Below, piece after piece: positions 1,507 to 9,203 of a DNA stretch of 9,577 nucleotides (its first letter is position 1; each line of letters begins with the position of its first letter). A program made the position numbers and the translations under genes. Origin of the DNA: Nitrospirota bacterium (GTDB taxonomy: Bacteria; Nitrospirota; Thermodesulfovibrionia; Thermodesulfovibrionales; JdFR-88); contig JAKAMR010000088.1 of NCBI GenBank assembly GCA_021812785.1, positions 1 through 9,577 on the forward strand, in the 5' to 3' direction. Below the pieces are notes generated by a model, which worked only from the letters and a program-made list of their open reading frames with translations, was not told the DNA's origin and did no database searches.

Positions 1507-3843
1507 TTAGGCTGCTTCCCTCAAAACCGCCTGCTTAACCTTGAACAACACAAGCTGGCAACCTCGCGAATCTGTTTGCTCTTTAAACCTTTCCGTTTTA
1601 TATTTGGAAAAGGTCGGCTTCACATTGCTTATGTCTTTAAGCCGGATTGCCACGCGTTCAGCATCGAACAGCGCTAATTGACTTTCTTTAATGGCTTTTA
1701 GCTCTTTGAACCTCTCGACCTGCTCTTGAGAAAAGAAGTATCTGGAGCCCTTTTCATCTACATTTCGCAGGACGAGTTTTGGAAAAATCCAGCCTTCCCG
1801 CAGGATGCCGTCTATTTCGGCCACCGTGTACCCGGCTATATCCGCCAGCTGTCTTTTACTGACCAAGCCTCTGTTATTTATTTGCTGAATATTAGTGATT
1901 GCCTTCGGAAAAACTTTTGCTAAATCGATTGTTTCAAGATCGGCCTTTTTGAATAAATAAATTCTACCTCCGTCAATTTTCGGCCCGCTTAGCGGCATCA
2001 CCCCATTGGCCATCAGTCTATCTACAACCCCTCGGGTATTTGTACCCATAGCTTCGACAAGCCAGCCCATAGTGCTATAAGTACTTTTAAAGCGTTCAAT
2101 CTCCTCTCTGGATATTTCCCACGCGACTCTGCCTATACTGGCTTTTTTAGCGTTCAATAATCCATGATTAATGAGAAAAAAGACCTCCTCGGTCGATAGA
2201 CGCAAAATTCTGGACGCCTCTTGCATGGTGTGATTATCGTCCCTGCGCTTGGCGGATTCTGAAATTGAGAATTGCTCTATTTCGGCAGGATCGAAAAGGA
2301 GCGAGCTGAGTCCTGCCCCCTCGCTTTTCTCTATAGGGGTTATCTTTCCATTAAGAATCAGCTGAATGAACTCAGCAATTTCGATGCTCAGCTTTGACAA
2401 TTTTTTAATGGCGGAATGAAAACTGACGTGAGCGGTCAAAATTTTATCGCTCCCGGCGATCTTTTTATCAATAAGAGTTAAAAGCCTCTGGATTTCCGGC
2501 TGTTCGAATTTCCACGCAAGTTGTCCTGTGGCGGATGGCCCCTGTATGGCAGTCAGACAGCCGTTGCGAACAAGGTCCGCCACGGCTCTTCGGCCTATGC
2601 CTAATTTTTCCCCTGCCCGAGCAGCCGTGATGGATTTGTCCCATTTTTCCTTCAGCTCTCGCACGCTGTCCGCCTCGATCATTCGACGACTCCTATTGAC
2701 CCACGGAAAATATGGCCCCCTTAAATAGCCTTTTTCGTGTAAAACATCGACTGTATGGGTTCCGACATGTAAGAACCTGGCGGTCTCATGCTTGGTCATA
2801 TACCTTTTCAGGTGAACGTCTCCTTTAGAAATATTGCTGTACCATCCCGCATAGCCGCCGTCCCATCGGGTGACAACGTACTTATTAAAAGCTTCACGTA
2901 TGAATTCCGGCAAGGGATTGCCCTTTCTGACAAACAGGGGGTCATATAATTTGCCGAAATCCCTGGGCAACCCGGTTTGACTGCTCCCTTTGGATACCTG
3001 CCCCCTGATTTCTTCCAGGAAGGCATGAAAATTATCGGGCCAGTCATCGAAAATGGGCATCGCCTTCACGAGGACCTTATGCAGGTCCTCGTGCGGCAGC
3101 TTGCAGGCAAACTGTTTGCCGGTGGCGTCAACCACCCCGTTCTGCTGACCGGCGATAAAGTACACGGCGGACAGCAGTTCCCCAAGGCCCACACGCGAAA
3201 GAGGATTCATTTGGGGGTCACCTAGGGCCTCGGGGCCTGCGGGCACTTCCCCGGCTCCTCGGAGCCCACAGGTCTCCAAAATCAGACTGGAAAGGGTGGT
3301 TTCACCCTCAGGGACTTCCGAAATGGCTACTTCCCGCCAATCCCGGCCGCAATGCGAACATATGCTGACCCCTGGCCGGTTCCAGGATATCTTATTGCCG
3401 CATTCCGGGCATTTGTCAGAAAGCAGGACCCCGTGTTTGGGACAGCACGTGAAGGCGGCCAGGTCCCATATTTTCCGCGCGTAATTGGCCTCTCGAAGGC
3501 AGTCCGGGCAGACCTTCGGCTTAGTCGTCCGAACGGAATATTTATATACCCTGTGCCCGAATATGTTGTATGCCTCCGGCGGCGTCCCTTCGATTCCGGT
3601 CAGGCAGGCCAAATCCCGCAGCGTAGGGACATCAAGATTGAGCATTTCCGAAAGGTTCTGTAGCCGCTGCTCCGTATATATGCTTATGCCGGTCCTTTCA
3701 TCCACTCTAACTTCGGCCAGGGAAAGGAGATGCGCAGCCGTTTCATAGGCGTTCTCCTCTGCGGCCCTGATTATAAGTCCCTTGAGGTTTTCGTCTTCAT
3801 ACGGACGCGGGGTCCTGAGAAGCCTTCTGTCAAAAGATTCCAT
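1507..3843 (-). CDS. tniQ: TniQ/TnsD-family target-selection protein with tandem HTH array and clamp-binding-like tail
   Basis: TniQ/TnsD proteins choose the insertion site and recruit the TnsC ATPase. At 778 residues this one is much longer than a minimal TniQ. The N-terminal domain has two zinc fingers: C112/C115 with C134/H137, and C145/C148 with C162/C165. Residues about 349-713 contain six similar helix-turn-helix modules, each ending in an acidic helix such as EIQRLL, EIEQF, EIERFK or QVERFK. They start near residues 349, 405, 471, 538, 591 and 661 and resemble excisionase/MerR-like winged helices. The tail is an internal duplication: ERFKE at 710 and 751, then QLALF (722-726) and QLVLF (763-767), both close to the beta sliding clamp-binding consensus QL(S/D)LF. 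GGAGGGG precedes ATG 3843, ten bases after the tnsC stop. The protein ends in Ala-Ala. TniQ/TnsD identity is firm; the clamp role is inferred. Confidence 0.93.
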   Translation of the reverse strand: MESFDRRLLRTPRPYEDENLKGLIIRAAEENAYETAAHLLSLAEVRVDERTGISIYTEQRLQNLSEMLNLDVPTLRDLACLTGIEGTPPEAYNIFGHRVYKYSVRTTKPKVCPDCLREANYARKIWDLAAFTCCPKHGVLLSDKCPECGNKISWNRPGVSICSHCGRDWREVAISEVPEGETTLSSLILETCGLRGAGEVPAGPEALGDPQMNPLSRVGLGELLSAVYFIAGQQNGVVDATGKQFACKLPHEDLHKVLVKAMPIFDDWPDNFHAFLEEIRGQVSKGSSQTGLPRDFGKLYDPLFVRKGNPLPEFIREAFNKYVVTRWDGGYAGWYSNISKGDVHLKRYMTKHETARFLHVGTHTVDVLHEKGYLRGPYFPWVNRSRRMIEADSVRELKEKWDKSITAARAGEKLGIGRRAVADLVRNGCLTAIQGPSATGQLAWKFEQPEIQRLLTLIDKKIAGSDKILTAHVSFHSAIKKLSKLSIEIAEFIQLILNGKITPIEKSEGAGLSSLLFDPAEIEQFSISESAKRRDDNHTMQEASRILRLSTEEVFFLINHGLLNAKKASIGRVAWEISREEIERFKSTYSTMGWLVEAMGTNTRGVVDRLMANGVMPLSGPKIDGGRIYLFKKADLETIDLAKVFPKAITNIQQINNRGLVSKRQLADIAGYTVAEIDGILREGWIFPKLVLRNVDEKGSRYFFSQEQVERFKELKAIKESQLALFDAERVAIRLKDISNVKPTFSKYKTERFKEQTDSRGCQLVLFKVKQAVLREAA

Positions 3844-3853
3844 CTGGCCCCTC

Positions 3854-4879
3854 CTATTTCCGCAACACAGCGGATATGTTTTCTTTCACTGCGCCGTTTT
3901 TCCCATGCCTGCCTCTTCTGCCGACCCCGTCTCCGGAATCGATCGGCGTCGGCCGCTTGAACGGATCAAGGTTTTCCGCATCCGTATGAAAAGGATTAAT
4001 GCACCCGGGAGCGCTCAGGGCCAACTCTTCATTGTAGGCCAGAGCCAGGAGGTCGTTAGTGATGCTCCCAAATCCTTTCTTGAAAGCCTTCTCAGCCGCC
4101 TTGCTTATCAGCTTCTTTACATTCGAGATAATCCCCTGGGTGGCGCAGAATAACCTCAAAGGCATCTGCCCGCTGAAGAGATTCGACGGCTTCGGCAACG
4201 GCAGCGCCTTTTCAAGGACAATCAAAAAATTCGTGAATTCCTGTTGTTCCGTGGGGTTCGACCATCCGAAGTCCTTCAATTCGTTTATTGAAGAAAACCT
4301 CCTCTGGAGCTGGTCGTTTGCCCTCAGTATGTTTACGGACCACGGCATGCCCATCAAGATTATGGGCACGCCGGTTTCGTTCAGAATGTGTTTAAGCCAA
4401 TCCGCAGAAGACCGCAGCACTTTTTTCTTGTCCTCGTCTACCAAGTGCTGGAACTCATCCAGAATTATCAGCTCGACACGGCATCCCTTAATGAGCCTGC
4501 ATAGCCTCCTGGTAAGGCTAGGTATCGAACCCCGCTCCGGAAGCGGATCTCCTAAATCCCCCAGCAACTGGCTGGCCATGCCCTTGATAGTCGCGGGCGC
4601 GGAAACACTCGACCGCAGTACCGTTATAATCGTCCCTTCATCGTTAACTATTCTCTGGTATTTCCTCTCGTAATATTTCGCTATCGTCGTTTTTCCGCGT
4701 CCCGTTTCGCCAATGATGAGCAGACATCTCGGCTCGGTAGTGTATTTCGACCTCTCGTGGCACTCGGTTATTCTCTGGATGATTCTCTTGAACCGAGGAG
4801 ATTCAACTATAGTGTTCTCGATAAGCATCACTTTATCTTCAAGGGACGGCTGTTGGCGATGGCCTTCCTTATGCGGCAT
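3854..4879 (-). CDS. tnsC: TnsC-family AAA+ ATPase, transposition regulator
   Basis: This 341-residue ATPase links the target selector (TniQ) to the TnsA/TnsB transposase and is expected to coat target DNA as an ATP-bound oligomer. The Walker A motif is GETGRGKTT at residues 57-65. Walker B is VELIILDEFQHL, with D141 and E142. A sensor-like strand VPIILMGMP lies at 171-179 and candidate arginine fingers at R193/R194. Length and motifs fit TnsC/TniB-type AAA+ proteins. The start at 4879 overlaps tnsB by 11 bases and is served by AAAGGAGG inside the tnsB 3' end, indicating tight coupling. The tail is basic and proline/glycine rich, so it is probably flexible. Unlike TnsA, TnsB and TniQ, it ends in Arg-Lys rather than Ala-Ala. 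Confidence 0.94.
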   Translation of the reverse strand: MPHKEGHRQQPSLEDKVMLIENTIVESPRFKRIIQRITECHERSKYTTEPRCLLIIGETGRGKTTIAKYYERKYQRIVNDEGTIITVLRSSVSAPATIKGMASQLLGDLGDPLPERGSIPSLTRRLCRLIKGCRVELIILDEFQHLVDEDKKKVLRSSADWLKHILNETGVPIILMGMPWSVNILRANDQLQRRFSSINELKDFGWSNPTEQQEFTNFLIVLEKALPLPKPSNLFSGQMPLRLFCATQGIISNVKKLISKAAEKAFKKGFGSITNDLLALAYNEELALSAPGCINPFHTDAENLDPFKRPTPIDSGDGVGRRGRHGKNGAVKENISAVLRK

Positions 4880-6941
4880 CTTGTTCTCCTCCTTTTCTTA
4901 AATCTACGTAGCTGACACCCCAGTCGGACAGATCGTCGGTTTCCTCATCTAATGGGTCTGTTGCGATTGCATTCGCCCGGCCTGGGGCCGATTGCGCGCC
5001 CCGGTTTACGTCTATGTGCTTCTTTTTCGGTCTCCCCCGCCGTTTCTTCGGCTGTTCGGGCAGGAAGCCCCCTTTTTCGGATGTTTGCTCACCCGGGTCT
5101 CCCGCGCCTCTATCATTCATGACCGATCCGATATTCGATATCGAGTTAGCGGCGTGATGGTCGGCCGAAGGCAAAACGGGTTCATAGGGTTGTGTTGTTG
5201 CCTTCGGTTCCTGAGGAATCACCACTTGGCCGGTTTCTACTATTTTTCCGTAATCTTCCTGGCACACGCCGAACAGCCGTCCTATTTTCTGCCGGGACCC
5301 CGTCCTTTTCGTGAGGTTCCACTCGGCAGCGGCCAGCTTCCATATCTCTTCCTTGGCCAGAGCAAGACTCACGATGTCGTAGTCGAGCTTGAGCTGCTCC
5401 TTGGCGTACCGGCAGATGACCTTGTGTGCCCATAGATTCAGGCCCTGCGTATAGCTCTGGCTGACGGCCTTCACCGTCACATAAGCTTTCTTGTCCTCGT
5501 CCAGCACATGGATCTCGGAAAGATCGGTCGGATCGTACTTGACCTTTACCTTTTTCCCGATGCCGTTTTTGTATTGCCGTTTCAAGGCCGTAAGGTTGAC
5601 ATCGTTATAAAAGAGGTTGTGTAGTTCTATACCGGAGGTGGTTATAGTCCTCCATTCGACCATCCCAAGCATTACCTCCAAAGCCTTCCTGCTTTCAGGA
5701 AGGGCCGGCTCGCACTCCTGCACCCCGATCTGCCAGACTTTGGCCGGTGTACTAATCAGTCCTTTATGTTTATCCTGGTGGTATACGTCGACGACCCACT
5801 TATGCACCATTTCCATAAAGGTTTCATAGCTGATAACCGCGTTCTTCTTAGGGTCGTAATCATCCTTTTCAAAGATATTAGAAAATGAGGTACCCTTTTG
5901 TTGGTGTAGAAGCCCGGTATTTTGAATTCCGAAAAAGCGTTCGGCCGAGGGCTTGTACCAGGGACACTTTACCGGGGCATACTGAACAACGATGCCCAAC
6001 TGAAGACAGGCATCGGTAAGGTCCTGGCTATGGAACTCTTTTCCGTTATCCACCACAACCGTCTCCATAAGGCCGTATGCGTCCCAGGTATTCTTTATGC
6101 TGGGGTACCTTTTCCTGATATAGCCCTTCGGAGATATCGCATGTATCAGGCAATGCATCACGCTGTGATACGATGGCGGCACGAACCCGATGAAGATACC
6201 GGCCACGCATTTGCTATAGACGTCTATCGCCAGGGTCATCCAGGGGCGCCCTATCGGCATCCTCCGTTCCAGATCCACCACGAAGAGATCGAGCTTCGTG
6301 TGGTCCATCTCAACGCGTTCCAGAGGTCTTGTTGGACGCACACCCTCTTTTTTAGGCATGAACTTGGCATCGGCATGCCGTTTTCCGAACCTAGCCTTCG
6401 CCACCTCGTAGGGGTCGAGCTTCGAGATAATCCGGTGGATAGTCGAAGGGTCGGGAAACCTCAGAAGGACATCGTTGCCTGCCGCTTTCCTCAAATCGTT
6501 CTCATGCTTGATCCTGGCAACGACCGCGTCAAATATCGCGGACTGCGTTACACGTTCGCGCACGAGAAATCTCTCGGCGATGACCTCGTCCGTTATCTCC
6601 TGCACCTCAACTTGTATTTTGTTTTCACGGTTGCCCTTCAGGCTGCGCCTAGGGAAAAGGGACCGTATGTTCTCTCCCGAATCCAGATAGTCCGTATACC
6701 AGCGGTATACCTGCCAGAAAGACGGCGGATTCTCATCCCCAACCGTCCTGGCGATCGTATCGATAAGCGGCTGAAAGACCCTCTTCGTCTTCCTGTCCAC
6801 GCCGGCATCCAAAAGACTTGTCAAATAAGTGAATTTTCTTCTCGTCTTGGCCCTGAGGTCTTCGGGTAATTCCGTCAAGTCTGCTTCGAGGAGGCCCCCA
6901 ACCTTCTTTTTTGCGAAGGATTCCTCCGCCTCGTCGCCCAT
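4869..6941 (-). CDS. tnsB: TnsB-family DDE transposase (main open frame; N terminus displaced by an amber codon)
   Basis: TnsB binds the transposon ends and performs 3'-end cleavage and strand transfer. The 690-residue frame has the retroviral-integrase-type DDE core: D213 (VEMDHTKLD), D298 (VVVDNGKEF) and E334 (PSAERFFG), giving DD35E spacing. Conserved WMTLAIDVYSK lies at about 234-244. A Mu-transposase-like beta-barrel follows near 455-495 (KKVKVKYDPTDLSEIHVLDE). The C-terminal tail is low-complexity and holds an AT-hook-like block KKRRGRPKKK at about 632-641, then an acidic stretch; it ends in Ala-Ala. ATG 6941 has only a poor ribosome binding site. The frame is open upstream for another 46 codons to a better-placed ATG at 7079, interrupted by one TAG at 7020-7022. 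The native protein was therefore probably about 736 residues. The catalytic core is intact; activity depends on restart or readthrough. Confidence 0.93.
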   Translation of the reverse strand: MGDEAEESFAKKKVGGLLEADLTELPEDLRAKTRRKFTYLTSLLDAGVDRKTKRVFQPLIDTIARTVGDENPPSFWQVYRWYTDYLDSGENIRSLFPRRSLKGNRENKIQVEVQEITDEVIAERFLVRERVTQSAIFDAVVARIKHENDLRKAAGNDVLLRFPDPSTIHRIISKLDPYEVAKARFGKRHADAKFMPKKEGVRPTRPLERVEMDHTKLDLFVVDLERRMPIGRPWMTLAIDVYSKCVAGIFIGFVPPSYHSVMHCLIHAISPKGYIRKRYPSIKNTWDAYGLMETVVVDNGKEFHSQDLTDACLQLGIVVQYAPVKCPWYKPSAERFFGIQNTGLLHQQKGTSFSNIFEKDDYDPKKNAVISYETFMEMVHKWVVDVYHQDKHKGLISTPAKVWQIGVQECEPALPESRKALEVMLGMVEWRTITTSGIELHNLFYNDVNLTALKRQYKNGIGKKVKVKYDPTDLSEIHVLDEDKKAYVTVKAVSQSYTQGLNLWAHKVICRYAKEQLKLDYDIVSLALAKEEIWKLAAAEWNLTKRTGSRQKIGRLFGVCQEDYGKIVETGQVVIPQEPKATTQPYEPVLPSADHHAANSISNIGSVMNDRGAGDPGEQTSEKGGFLPEQPKKRRGRPKKKHIDVNRGAQSAPGRANAIATDPLDEETDDLSDWGVSYVDLRKGGEQDAA

Positions 6942-7079
6942 TAGCCATAAATGTCCGTCAAACAGAAGGTCGATAAGCTCTTCCCGGGATTTCGTTATGA
7001 AAGTATTCAGCGCGATATCCTAAAGCTGCAACTGCCCGCCGGAAACACTCTGCTCAATCACGTATTCCCTTTCTCCCAT
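6942..7079 (-). pseudogene. tnsB: 5' part of tnsB upstream of the main frame, containing an in-frame TAG
   Basis: ATG 7079 lies 35 bases after the tnsA stop, with AGAAGG six bases upstream. It opens a frame that reads 19 residues (REYVIEQSVSGGQLQL at the end), a TAG at 7020-7022, then 26 more residues (ITKSREELIDLLFDGHLWL at the end) directly into the main tnsB frame. The phase is exact (138 bases). The pattern of a short beta-rich segment followed by a (S)REELIxLLxxGxL helix is what TnsB/TniA-type transposases have at their N termini, as I recall the family. A CAG to TAG change would explain the stop. No alternative start with a good ribosome binding site lies between the TAG and 6941. Confidence 0.7.
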
Positions 7080-7114
7080 GACTACCTTCTGTCCCTTTGC
7101 GAATCTGCGAATTT

Positions 7115-7759
7115 TCAAGCCGCCCTATCCCCGCTTTTAAGAAGCATTAGCGACAGTCTCACCTCGGTCTCAGGATTAATCGGCCGAGACAAATCGATAG
7201 ACAGGATTCCGTGAAAAATGGAGGCATATACCGTGGCCGCCCTCAGTCCCTTCGAGGCGAATCCCCTGATAATTTCTCTCAACGTCAACGTCTCCCTATC
7301 CTCGAACATCGAGTAAAGGAGGATTTGGTGCGCCGTCGTGACAGGCGTTTTGGCATACTTGTACAGCAGCTTTACGTTTTTGAGCCGGGGCTGAATGCGG
7401 ATCTCCCGGTCCGTCACCACGATGAATTCGTAGCCCTCTTGAGCGCAAATTGGCCCGATCCGTCTGAATAATTCGACATACTCTTCCTTTTTAGCTTTTT
7501 TTGCGTCTTTGACCTCGACGATTTGTTTCCTGTCCGTCCTTATGACTCGGAAGTCCGGAGTGTATTTATGGACCTTCCCGTCTGAAAAGTACTCGATTTT
7601 CAGCGGCTGCTCCTCATAGCTGAGGACATCCGGATCGATTTCGATCAGATATAGGAAGTCGCGTTCGAGCTGCGACTCCCACCAGACCATCTTGCCGCAT
7701 TTGATGCTCGGGAATTTCCCGATTACTTTCCTGCCGCCGTTTGTGATTCTTCTTATCAT
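7115..7759 (-). CDS. tnsA: TnsA-family endonuclease, 5'-end cleavage subunit of the transposase
   Basis: TnsA cuts the 5' ends of the element alongside TnsB, giving cut-and-paste rather than replicative transposition. The 214-residue protein has the restriction-endonuclease-like core: E32 in WWESQLERDF (E28 is an alternative), D69 in YTPDF, and E82-V-K84 in IVEVKDAKK. The central block DPDVLSYEEQPLKIEY is typical of TnsA. The C-terminal half (about 125-214) would be the winged-helix domain that contacts TnsC. It is the first gene of the operon. ATG 7759 sits 12 bases after GGAG, a long spacing, and overlaps in ATGA fashion the end of a short upstream frame, so start efficiency may depend on coupling. 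The protein ends in Arg-Ala-Ala. Confidence 0.94.
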   Translation of the reverse strand: MIRRITNGGRKVIGKFPSIKCGKMVWWESQLERDFLYLIEIDPDVLSYEEQPLKIEYFSDGKVHKYTPDFRVIRTDRKQIVEVKDAKKAKKEEYVELFRRIGPICAQEGYEFIVVTDREIRIQPRLKNVKLLYKYAKTPVTTAHQILLYSMFEDRETLTLREIIRGFASKGLRAATVYASIFHGILSIDLSRPINPETEVRLSLMLLKSGDRAA

Positions 7760-7965
7760 TTTTCTGCGAGTCTCCTTAATTTTGTGTTTTTACCCATTTG
7801 CTGCCCCTCGACGCGGTTCCGCCGCAGCAATAAAAACCTTATTAGCCTCCGTGCGCACTGATAGATTGAAACCGGCATTCGGAAAAACCGCAGAAAGCTT
7901 AATGGCTCGAAGGCGGGGTTGTTTACATTCTGAAAAAACGTCTTTGGTATCATTACGGTACTTCT
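7760..7965 (-). other. Leader of the tnsABC-tniQ transcript with hairpin and possible minigene
   Basis: About 200 bases separate the inferred transcription start from tnsA. A perfect seven-base stem, TTGCTGC/GCAGCAA, pairs 7798-7804 with 7824-7830. Its 19-base loop contains a GC-rich inner segment. A 13-codon frame (MGKNTKLRRLAEK, ATG 7797, preceded by GAGGGG) ends with TGA overlapping the tnsA ATG. Both features could govern tnsA translation, but neither is proven. The longer 65-codon frame in this leader looks non-coding. Confidence 0.35.
7946..7962. promoter_or_regulatory. Second operator-like site (imperfect palindrome)
   Basis: GGTATCATTACGGTACT matches the perfect palindrome at 7977-7993 in most positions, including TATCAT and TACT. 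Its centre (7954) is 31 bp from that of the first site, about three helical turns, so proteins on both would face the same side. It covers roughly +3 to +19 of the inferred transcript, a repressor-like position. Confidence 0.55.
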
Positions 7966-7971
7966 TAATTG

Positions 7972-8002
7972 ATTATAGTATCATAATGATACTGAATGTC
8001 AA
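7972..8002 (-). promoter_or_regulatory. Promoter of the transposition operon
   Basis: On the minus strand, TTGACA (8002-7997) and TATAAT (7977-7972) are both perfect sigma-70 hexamers separated by 19 bp rather than 17. Transcription would start near 7965. Spacers of 19-20 bp are known for promoters activated by MerR-family regulators that untwist the spacer. Here the spacer is almost entirely filled by a 17-bp palindrome, so the promoter looks strongly regulated. Confidence 0.7.
7977..7993. promoter_or_regulatory. Perfect 17-bp palindromic operator inside the tnsA promoter spacer
   Basis: AGTATCATAATGATACT has eight-base arms around one central base. It lies between the -35 and -10 boxes of the operon promoter and touches the -10 box. 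With the partial copy at 7946-7962 it forms a two-site operator. Candidate binders in the window are the Xre-type HTH protein (1143-1427) and TniQ, with its MerR/excisionase-like modules; neither assignment is shown by sequence. Confidence 0.65.
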
Positions 8003-8368: not shown

Positions 8369-8472
8369 GCTGGCCGTTCCCTTTTCATGCCTTTCCGATA
8401 TACCTTTTATCTGCCAGAATGTGCGAATCTGCAATGCTTCAGGGAAATTTTCATTTACAAAGGAGGTGCTTT

Positions 8473-8601
8473 ATGAGCCGTACCTGGAGGCTAGCGGGCC
8501 ACAGGAGGCATACGTGTTCAGTAATAAAGAACTCGCCGAAGCCTACGGCTGCGGCAAATACAATGAAAATGACCATGACATCATTGCGGATGCATACATA
8601 A
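8473..8601 (+). CDS. Short upstream ORF overlapping the sigma-like gene in another frame
   Basis: AAAGGAGG (8459-8466) with a six-base gap to ATG 8473 is the best ribosome binding site in this part of the window. It opens a 42-codon frame, not the sigma frame. The peptide (starting MSRTWRLAGHRRHTCSV) looks like an out-of-frame translation. Either it is a regulatory upstream ORF, or a one-base error or lesion separates this start from the sigma-like frame. Confidence 0.35.
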   Translation: MSRTWRLAGHRRHTCSVIKNSPKPTAAANTMKMTMTSLRMHT

Positions 8602-9203
8602 AGGCCAGGGAAACTTTCCATTTTAGAGATGATTCTTCGATGACCAGAAGTCAGGCCCGCAGATACCATTATCAAAATGTTTTTAAAAATGGTCAAAAGA
8701 GTCATTTTAGGAAGGAAAAGAAAAAGGTATATTTTGATGATTATAAGGCGCTATTGGCACTTGATGATGAATGGTCCTCTGATGAACTGAAGTCCCGTGC
8801 TTTTCCGGGGCAGTATGAATACTCTTTCAATCCGGAAAGGGTCCTGAACAAGTTGCTGGTGAAGAAAGTTAAATCTATAACCTGCAATTTGCTTTCAGAC
8901 CACAAAAGAGAAATTCGAGTGATGCTCTACCTGTATTATGGCAAGGAATTCACATTCGCTCAGATAGGGAAGATAGTCAACTGTTCGAAAAGCACGGTGG
9001 AGCGGACAATCAAAAGGGCAATTTCGCAATTGAGCGCCAGCGTCGAGCGGAAAGGGCTTGTGTATCAGGACTACACAAGAATCGAATCGAAGTTCATAGA
9101 ATTAAAGGTTTGCGGATCGCATCAACCGGAACCTAAGGAAAAACCAGGAGAGATTAAGTATTATTTTTATGCTCAACCGCCTTTGGCGGCCAAAGCAGCC
9201 TAA
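8514..9203 (+). CDS. Sigma-70 family (ECF-like) RNA polymerase sigma factor or related HTH regulator
   Basis: The proposed GTG start at 8514 follows AGGAGG with a five-base gap and gives 229 residues. The frame is open back to 8361, and a GTG at 8421 without a ribosome binding site would add 31 residues. Residues about 126-180 look like sigma region 4: LLSDHKREIRVMLYLYYGKE, then the HTH FAQIGKIVNCSKSTVERTIK (148-167), then AISQL. The N-terminal part (DHDIIADAYIKARETFHF, later FRKEKKK) may be a diverged region 2, with weaker support. The tail (KYYFYAQPPLAAKAA) ends in Ala-Ala like three of the transposition proteins. The gene is divergent from the tns operon with its own promoter and terminator. 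It may be a regulator carried by the element or a flanking host gene. Confidence 0.72.
   Translation: MFSNKELAEAYGCGKYNENDHDIIADAYIKARETFHFRDDSSMTRSQARRYHYQNVFKNGQKSHFRKEKKKVYFDDYKALLALDDEWSSDELKSRAFPGQYEYSFNPERVLNKLLVKKVKSITCNLLSDHKREIRVMLYLYYGKEFTFAQIGKIVNCSKSTVERTIKRAISQLSASVERKGLVYQDYTRIESKFIELKVCGSHQPEPKEKPGEIKYYFYAQPPLAAKAA

Follow-up and report, generated by a model that had tools for sequence, protein, structure and literature searches.

A putative sliding-clamp-binding peptide in the duplicated C-terminal tail of a long TniQ protein from a Tn7-like element of Nitrospirota

Results

Gene layout of the element and architecture of TniQ

The stretch of DNA analysed here (the window, 9,577 nucleotides of contig JAKAMR010000088.1 from a Nitrospirota bacterium, assembly GCA_021812785.1) carries tnsA, tnsB, tnsC and tniQ, in that order, as a single operon on the minus strand, which is the core of a Tn7-like element. 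Its target selector, a long TniQ protein of 778 residues (1507..3843, minus strand, recognised by Pfam and Foldseek), ends in a tail with two peptides resembling the motif by which bacterial proteins bind DnaN, the beta sliding clamp. The other three genes, on the same strand, encode a TnsC/TniB AAA+ regulator (3854..4879; PF05621, E 1e-29), the TnsB transposase (4869..6941; PF09299, 2.8e-11; 690 residues when its start is put at the first ATG that follows an in-frame TAG) and the TnsA endonuclease (7115..7759; PF08722, 2.6e-14). A further TnsB match, to PF00665 at 3.4e-5, is under the cut-off of that model, and the match of TnsA to NF033179 (4.4e-22, 78.6 bits) does not reach the model cut-off of 110 bits. 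No TnsE was recognised by Pfam among the eight open reading frames (ORFs) of the window that were scanned, and TniQ itself has no match to a TnsE domain. A search of two other genomes discussed below, G001 and G121, with PF18623 (TnsE_C) was silent in its controls too and is uninformative on the absence of TnsE there.

The protein belongs to the TniQ family (PF06527, 62.9 bits against a cut-off of 27), with the TniQ domain at residues 10–141 followed by two helix-turn-helix (HTH) domains, HTH_17 at 539–587 and a MerR_1-like one at 665–727, and then by the tail, predicted with low confidence. In a Foldseek search with the predicted fold, solved TniQ chains come top (6v9q_J, E 3.5e-8) and a TnsD chain appears at rank 17 (8v32_J, E 2.7e-3). 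The preliminary description of this DNA had called the protein TnsD-like; by Pfam it is not a TnsD, as PF15978, the TnsD C-terminal domain, gives no match up to E 0.1.

The tail is duplicated and carries two clamp-binding-like motifs

The consensus for clamp binding is given as QLxLF or QxxL(x)F in the available text of PMC5371812 and PMC4549789, and TniQ contains it twice: as QLALF at residues 722–726 (1666..1680, minus strand), which aligns with the single motif of relatives, and as QLVLF at residues 763–767 (1543..1557, minus strand), a second, lineage-specific copy. They lie 52 and 11 residues from the C-terminus, respectively, with a linker of 36 residues between them, and their positions agree with those first reported. 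Each belongs to one unit of a tandem repeat of 41 residues (123 bp): copy 1, residues 694–734 (1642..1764, minus strand), comprises the end of the MerR-like domain, the linker and QLALF, while copy 2, residues 735–775 (1519..1641, minus strand), retains ERFKE and QLVLF but little else. ERFK recurs at residues 710 and 751, and ERFKE precedes each motif at equal distance in an ungapped register of 41 residues. The gapless duplication seen in the preliminary description is thus real and longer than had been stated, residues 689–734 matching 730–775 with a BLOSUM62 score of 58; shuffling reached at most 36 (300 shuffles of the 98-residue tail) or 48 (40 shuffles of the whole protein). As non-overlapping units the copies share 13 of 41 residues. 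Judged from the sequence the duplication is old, because the copies agree at only 64/138 nt over the 46-residue match.

At the composition of TniQ 0.0099 QLxLF motifs are expected; at least one was seen in 177 of 20,000 shuffles and two in 0 of 20,000. A chance origin of both pentapeptides is ruled out by these shuffles together with the homologues described below. A wider clamp-like regular expression finds just the same two sites in TniQ; applied to seven more ORFs of the window, it picks out QSAIF at residue 133 of TnsB and QMPLRL at residue 238 of TnsC.

One motif is kept among long TniQ relatives, the pair is not

To follow the motif we collected 18 long TniQ sequences by a protein search and a profile search: P0001–P0017 (P0001 being the window's own) and P0031, the sole addition of the profile search, which is without its N-terminus and is not in the tree. 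The others are 52–86% identical to the window protein. The C-terminal motif has the form Q[LMIF]xLF in 12 rows (strict QLxLF in eight) and QLxLSF in two, in keeping with the QxxL(x)F form given in the accessible part of PMC5371812; four rows have neither. In all 12 Q[LMIF]xLF rows the motif nearest to the C-terminus (in the window, the second copy) ends the protein but for 3–11 residues. The recognised forms, present in 14/18 rows, stand in variable surroundings: among the 20 columns 716–735 (ranked over 16 rows, with P0002 left out) the four defined motif positions come third to sixth in conservation, outranked by the pair of columns closest to the MerR-like helix. Position x is free to vary, its commonest residue reaching 19%, while Q, L and F are set off from the tail around them. 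In a tree of 17 long rows and an outgroup, which is star-like with 5 of 15 inner branches well supported and the deep forks unresolved, every multi-row branch has rows with the motif, and the four motif-less rows are separate single tips. An ancestral motif with four losses is the simplest reading of these sequences, not a proof. To the question raised in the preliminary description, whether conservation extends to both pentapeptides, the answer is no: the pair is found in 2/18 rows. What is kept, in most relatives, is one clamp-binding-like peptide in a variable tail.

It is possible, with chances that we put somewhat short of even, that one of the two copies in the window is a neutral remnant of the old tandem duplication, an extra motif without a role. 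The rarity of the pair, the divergence of the repeats (64/138 nt identical) and the loss of most of the MerR-like part from copy 2 all fit such a remnant. Against it, the ten positions of ERFKE and QLxLF hold 9 of the 13 residues shared by the copies (hypergeometric P 1.8e-5, for positions picked post hoc), and for QLxLF alone P is 0.028.

As background we took 50 TniQ-domain proteins, 47 from the phyla of locus L001 (Nitrospirae) and of Skermanella plus L002–L004, excluding L025 and L048, which carry the same genes as L001 and L002; one of the background searches gave 30 loci of 61 matches. Forty-five of the 50 are complete, and the other five, truncated where the retrieved DNA stopped, were left uncounted. 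Q[LMIF]xLF was found in the last 90 residues of none of the 45 complete PF06527 proteins, and Q..[LMI]F in the last 90 residues of none of 13 distant relatives (P0018–P0030). The motif as a general TniQ feature is ruled out, as it is unseen in these background sets. The difference between 12/18 and 0/45 has a Fisher P of 7e-9 with kinship ignored. Among 395 genomes of the phylum of G001 (the genome of L001), a match at E up to 1e-20 was obtained in G001 only; IMG/VR and phage records yielded no homologues, and plasmid records yielded 29, every one below 60% identity.

The motif-bearing tail is predicted to be flexible

The AlphaFold2 model of TniQ (24 sequences) has a mean predicted local distance difference test (pLDDT) score of 74.8. 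As residues 723–778 all score below 50, the whole of QLVLF and all but the first residue of QLALF are in a low-confidence stretch; mean pLDDT is 45 over residues 721–730 (QLALF) and 42 over 761–770 (QLVLF). With P0016 as the lead sequence (23 sequences, mean pLDDT 78.5) the motif, QMVLF at 721–725, lies in a block (721–730) with a mean of 48. By this measure the motif is predicted to lie on a flexible tail or linker, though a helix is drawn up to residue 725, and in these models the motif-bearing tail is probably disordered. Neither in the window model nor in that of P0016 is the motif inside a confidently predicted domain, which favours the clamp-binding-like reading of the preliminary description.

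The predicted helix (706–725; 705–723 in P0016) does run into the motif, so packing of the helix end is possible. The motif would then be the end of the last helix of the MerR-like domain, packing on TniQ, on TnsC or on a second TniQ, with its likeness to clamp peptides incidental. The mostly conserved F712 (11/17) and L715 (15/17), which precede the motif on this helix, agree with such packing. It appears improbable to us nevertheless, since the spacing of helix and motif is not constant (the linkers of P0005 and P0006 are short by three residues), the F is displaced by one place in the two QLxLSF rows, model confidence falls just at the motif, and the same kind of peptide is found on a TnsD tail that has no MerR-like match.

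A separate TnsD clade has a clamp-like motif at its C-terminus

This TnsD tail belongs to L019, from genome G121, whose C-terminus reads GQQGLFGAEGGGW and whose matching protein P0032 is labelled Nitrospira lenta (genes at L019:1468-3366 and L068:10295-12193). L019 matches PF15978, the TnsD domain; its gene follows another TnsD gene in tandem, and that first one is without Q..[LMI]F. Among the 120 rows listed of the 168 found in a homologue search with L019, the clade comprises L019 and P0032–P0040, and GQxxLF is present in eight of the nine closest rows, 7 or 18 residues from the end (the exception is P0033, with QGSWF). The other listed TnsD rows have a match in 1 of 111 cases (QEGIF, 36 residues from the end and not terminal). 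The clade tail, of roughly 50 residues, is missing from the two less related aligned rows. It is mostly variable, but in the nine aligned rows (several of them closely related to each other) an F..RR..W block where the tail begins and a single R ahead of the motif are invariant. No protein of the clade has more than one motif. From these sequences the tail seems to be an acquisition independent of that of TniQ, and the finding of a second clade, of TnsD proteins, with a C-terminal QxxLF of their own adds weight to the clamp-peptide interpretation.

In the same genome DnaE contains GQTSIFGDE (QTSIF at residue 916), which resembles GQQGLFGAE of the TnsD tail, and in G001 DnaE contains GQQSIFGGG (QQSIF at residue 907). 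Each is the only Q..[LMI]F of its open frame, and by analogy with the E. coli protein both are probably the clamp-binding sites of DnaE. G001 also encodes a DinB with QYSLF and a recognisable DnaN. Of the hints of clamp mimicry in these sequences, the likeness between the TnsD tail and the host DnaE, seen in one genome, is the most telling.

Just after the second TnsD gene, an ORF of 213 codons (L068:12532-13173) matches PF15978 positions 295–355 only and ends in GQQGLFDASEGGW.

State of this copy and its surroundings

The tnsB frame extends upstream of the in-frame TAG that precedes its ATG (6942-7130), and the TnsB relative in L001, 750 residues long, reads through at that position. Downstream of tniQ an Xre-like HTH ORF (1143-1427) runs into a TAA, followed in the same frame by a 45-residue stretch matching Xre_MbcA_ParS_C (PF09722, 1.6e-10; whole region 1005-1427), and L001 has an Xre_MbcA_ParS_C protein in the matching place after tniQ. 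No toxin gene was recognised among the window ORFs scanned by Pfam. Because of these in-frame stops in tnsB and in the antitoxin-like gene, the window copy of the element may be decaying and is possibly inactive; alternatively, tnsB may start at the later ATG.

Divergent from tnsA lies a gene for a sigma-70 region 4-like protein, found in both loci (window 8421-9203 and L001:3434-4006; 26% identity, E 4e-14). A pair of palindrome-like sites occupies 7946-7993, one being AGTATCATAATGATACT (7977-7993) and the other a degenerate version of it (7946-7962); AGTATCATAATGATACT falls in a sigma-70-like promoter match upstream of tnsA, of which 1.2 are expected by chance. Since L001 has a comparable pair upstream of its tnsA (about 5831-5876), a conserved operator is possible. 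No convincing pair of terminal inverted repeats with a 5-bp target duplication was found in the window or L001, the best pairs agreeing at 14/20 positions in L001, 13/20 in an L001 control region and 12/20 in the window.

Discussion

The conservation of the motif in a variable tail, the predicted disorder of this tail and the analogous peptide in the TnsD clade together suggest that the C-terminal tail of TniQ carries a DnaN-binding peptide, to which we assign a probability of roughly 0.7. Several findings weigh against this. The motif is absent from four of the 18 rows (P0007, P0008, which has KPVLF, P0011 and P0017) and is strict QLxLF in just eight, and only the window protein and its 85%-identical relative P0002 have two. 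The rows are related and not independent one by one, so that row counts and Fisher values overstate the independence of the evidence. Looser forms are seen in the background set: QxxLF in the last 90 residues of L015 and L020 (62 and 57 residues from the end) as well as of L019, QLRLF in the interior of L016 (starting at residue 422 out of 571), and QLSIDL, which L054 has. Furthermore, the helix predicted to enter the motif leaves room for packing, and the element copy itself may be inactive, given the in-frame stop in tnsB.

In the mechanism that we propose, the folded part of TniQ, made up of the TniQ core and several excisionase/MerR-like HTH domains in a row, would bind to target DNA and to TnsC in the manner of TniQ/TnsD proteins, while the Q-phi-x-L-F peptide of the tail would enter the hydrophobic pocket of the host clamp. 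TnsABC would then be recruited preferentially to DNA that carries clamps, either replicating or under repair. This would amount to a TnsE-like clamp contact built into TniQ, which is itself not a TnsE. That the peptide directs insertion to replicating DNA in this way we consider nearly an even chance, slightly below. In the lineage of the window the old 123-bp tandem duplication gave a second copy, which may raise avidity for the dimeric clamp; a functional bidentate tail is, however, rather doubtful. As speculation of similarly low likelihood, TniQ/TnsD selectors could have gained clamp tails repeatedly, with both a DNA site and a loaded clamp needed so that homing would take place as the fork passes, and with the duplicated tail holding both clamp protomers.

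The peptide could also bind the clamp for purposes other than target choice, such as gap filling, handling of the clamp after insertion, or coupling of transposition activity to replication. We regard this as rather unlikely, since the motif is located on the target selector, and matches to the regular expression in TnsA, TnsB and TnsC number none in L001 or the Nitrospira element (its genes named by Pfam, TnsB only from gene order and a weak rve_3 match) and two, both internal, in the window, although neither observation is decisive.

Known systems share parts of the arrangement. TnsE of Tn7, which selects replication forks as targets and makes contact with the beta clamp, likewise combines Tn7-type target selection with a clamp-binding consensus motif, as described in the accessible text of PMC5371812, but it is a separate protein, whereas the motif in the window is on TniQ, joined to HTH domains. 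With the TnsD/TniQ proteins of Tn7-like elements the window protein shares the TniQ core, the C-terminal HTH domains and the Foldseek matches, while a clamp motif is not described for them in the available text of PMC10293859, in which clamp- words occur 0 times. An IS1634 transposase binds beta via a C-terminal QLxLF-like motif, binding being lost in a double mutant, and some members have a second motif there (PMC4549789, from the portion available); there, however, the motif is on an insertion-sequence transposase and here on a target selector. A further parallel is the TnsD clade of L019 and P0032–P0040, with a clamp-like motif, GQxxLF, in its C-terminal tail, though PF15978 is present there and the motif is single. 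A full-text literature search, whose coverage leaves out most subscription papers, turned up no claim connecting TniQ or TnsD with the sliding clamp. In the passages available, PMC5371812 and PMC4363357 tie the clamp to TnsE where TnsD and the sliding clamp come up together, and those of PMC11406308 on TniQ and the replisome are reference-list entries. From sequence comparison, the clamp-like tail on a target selector may couple the choice of target to DNA replication in a new way.

Tn7 is described as splitting sequence-specific targeting, by TnsD, from replication targeting, by TnsE. If TniQ/TnsD proteins dock on the clamp, the two types of targeting would be merged in one protein. This could account for the access to replicating DNA of elements in which no TnsE is recognised. 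Being short, portable and on a disordered tail, such a peptide is easily tested and could serve generally to couple TniQ-type targeting to replication.
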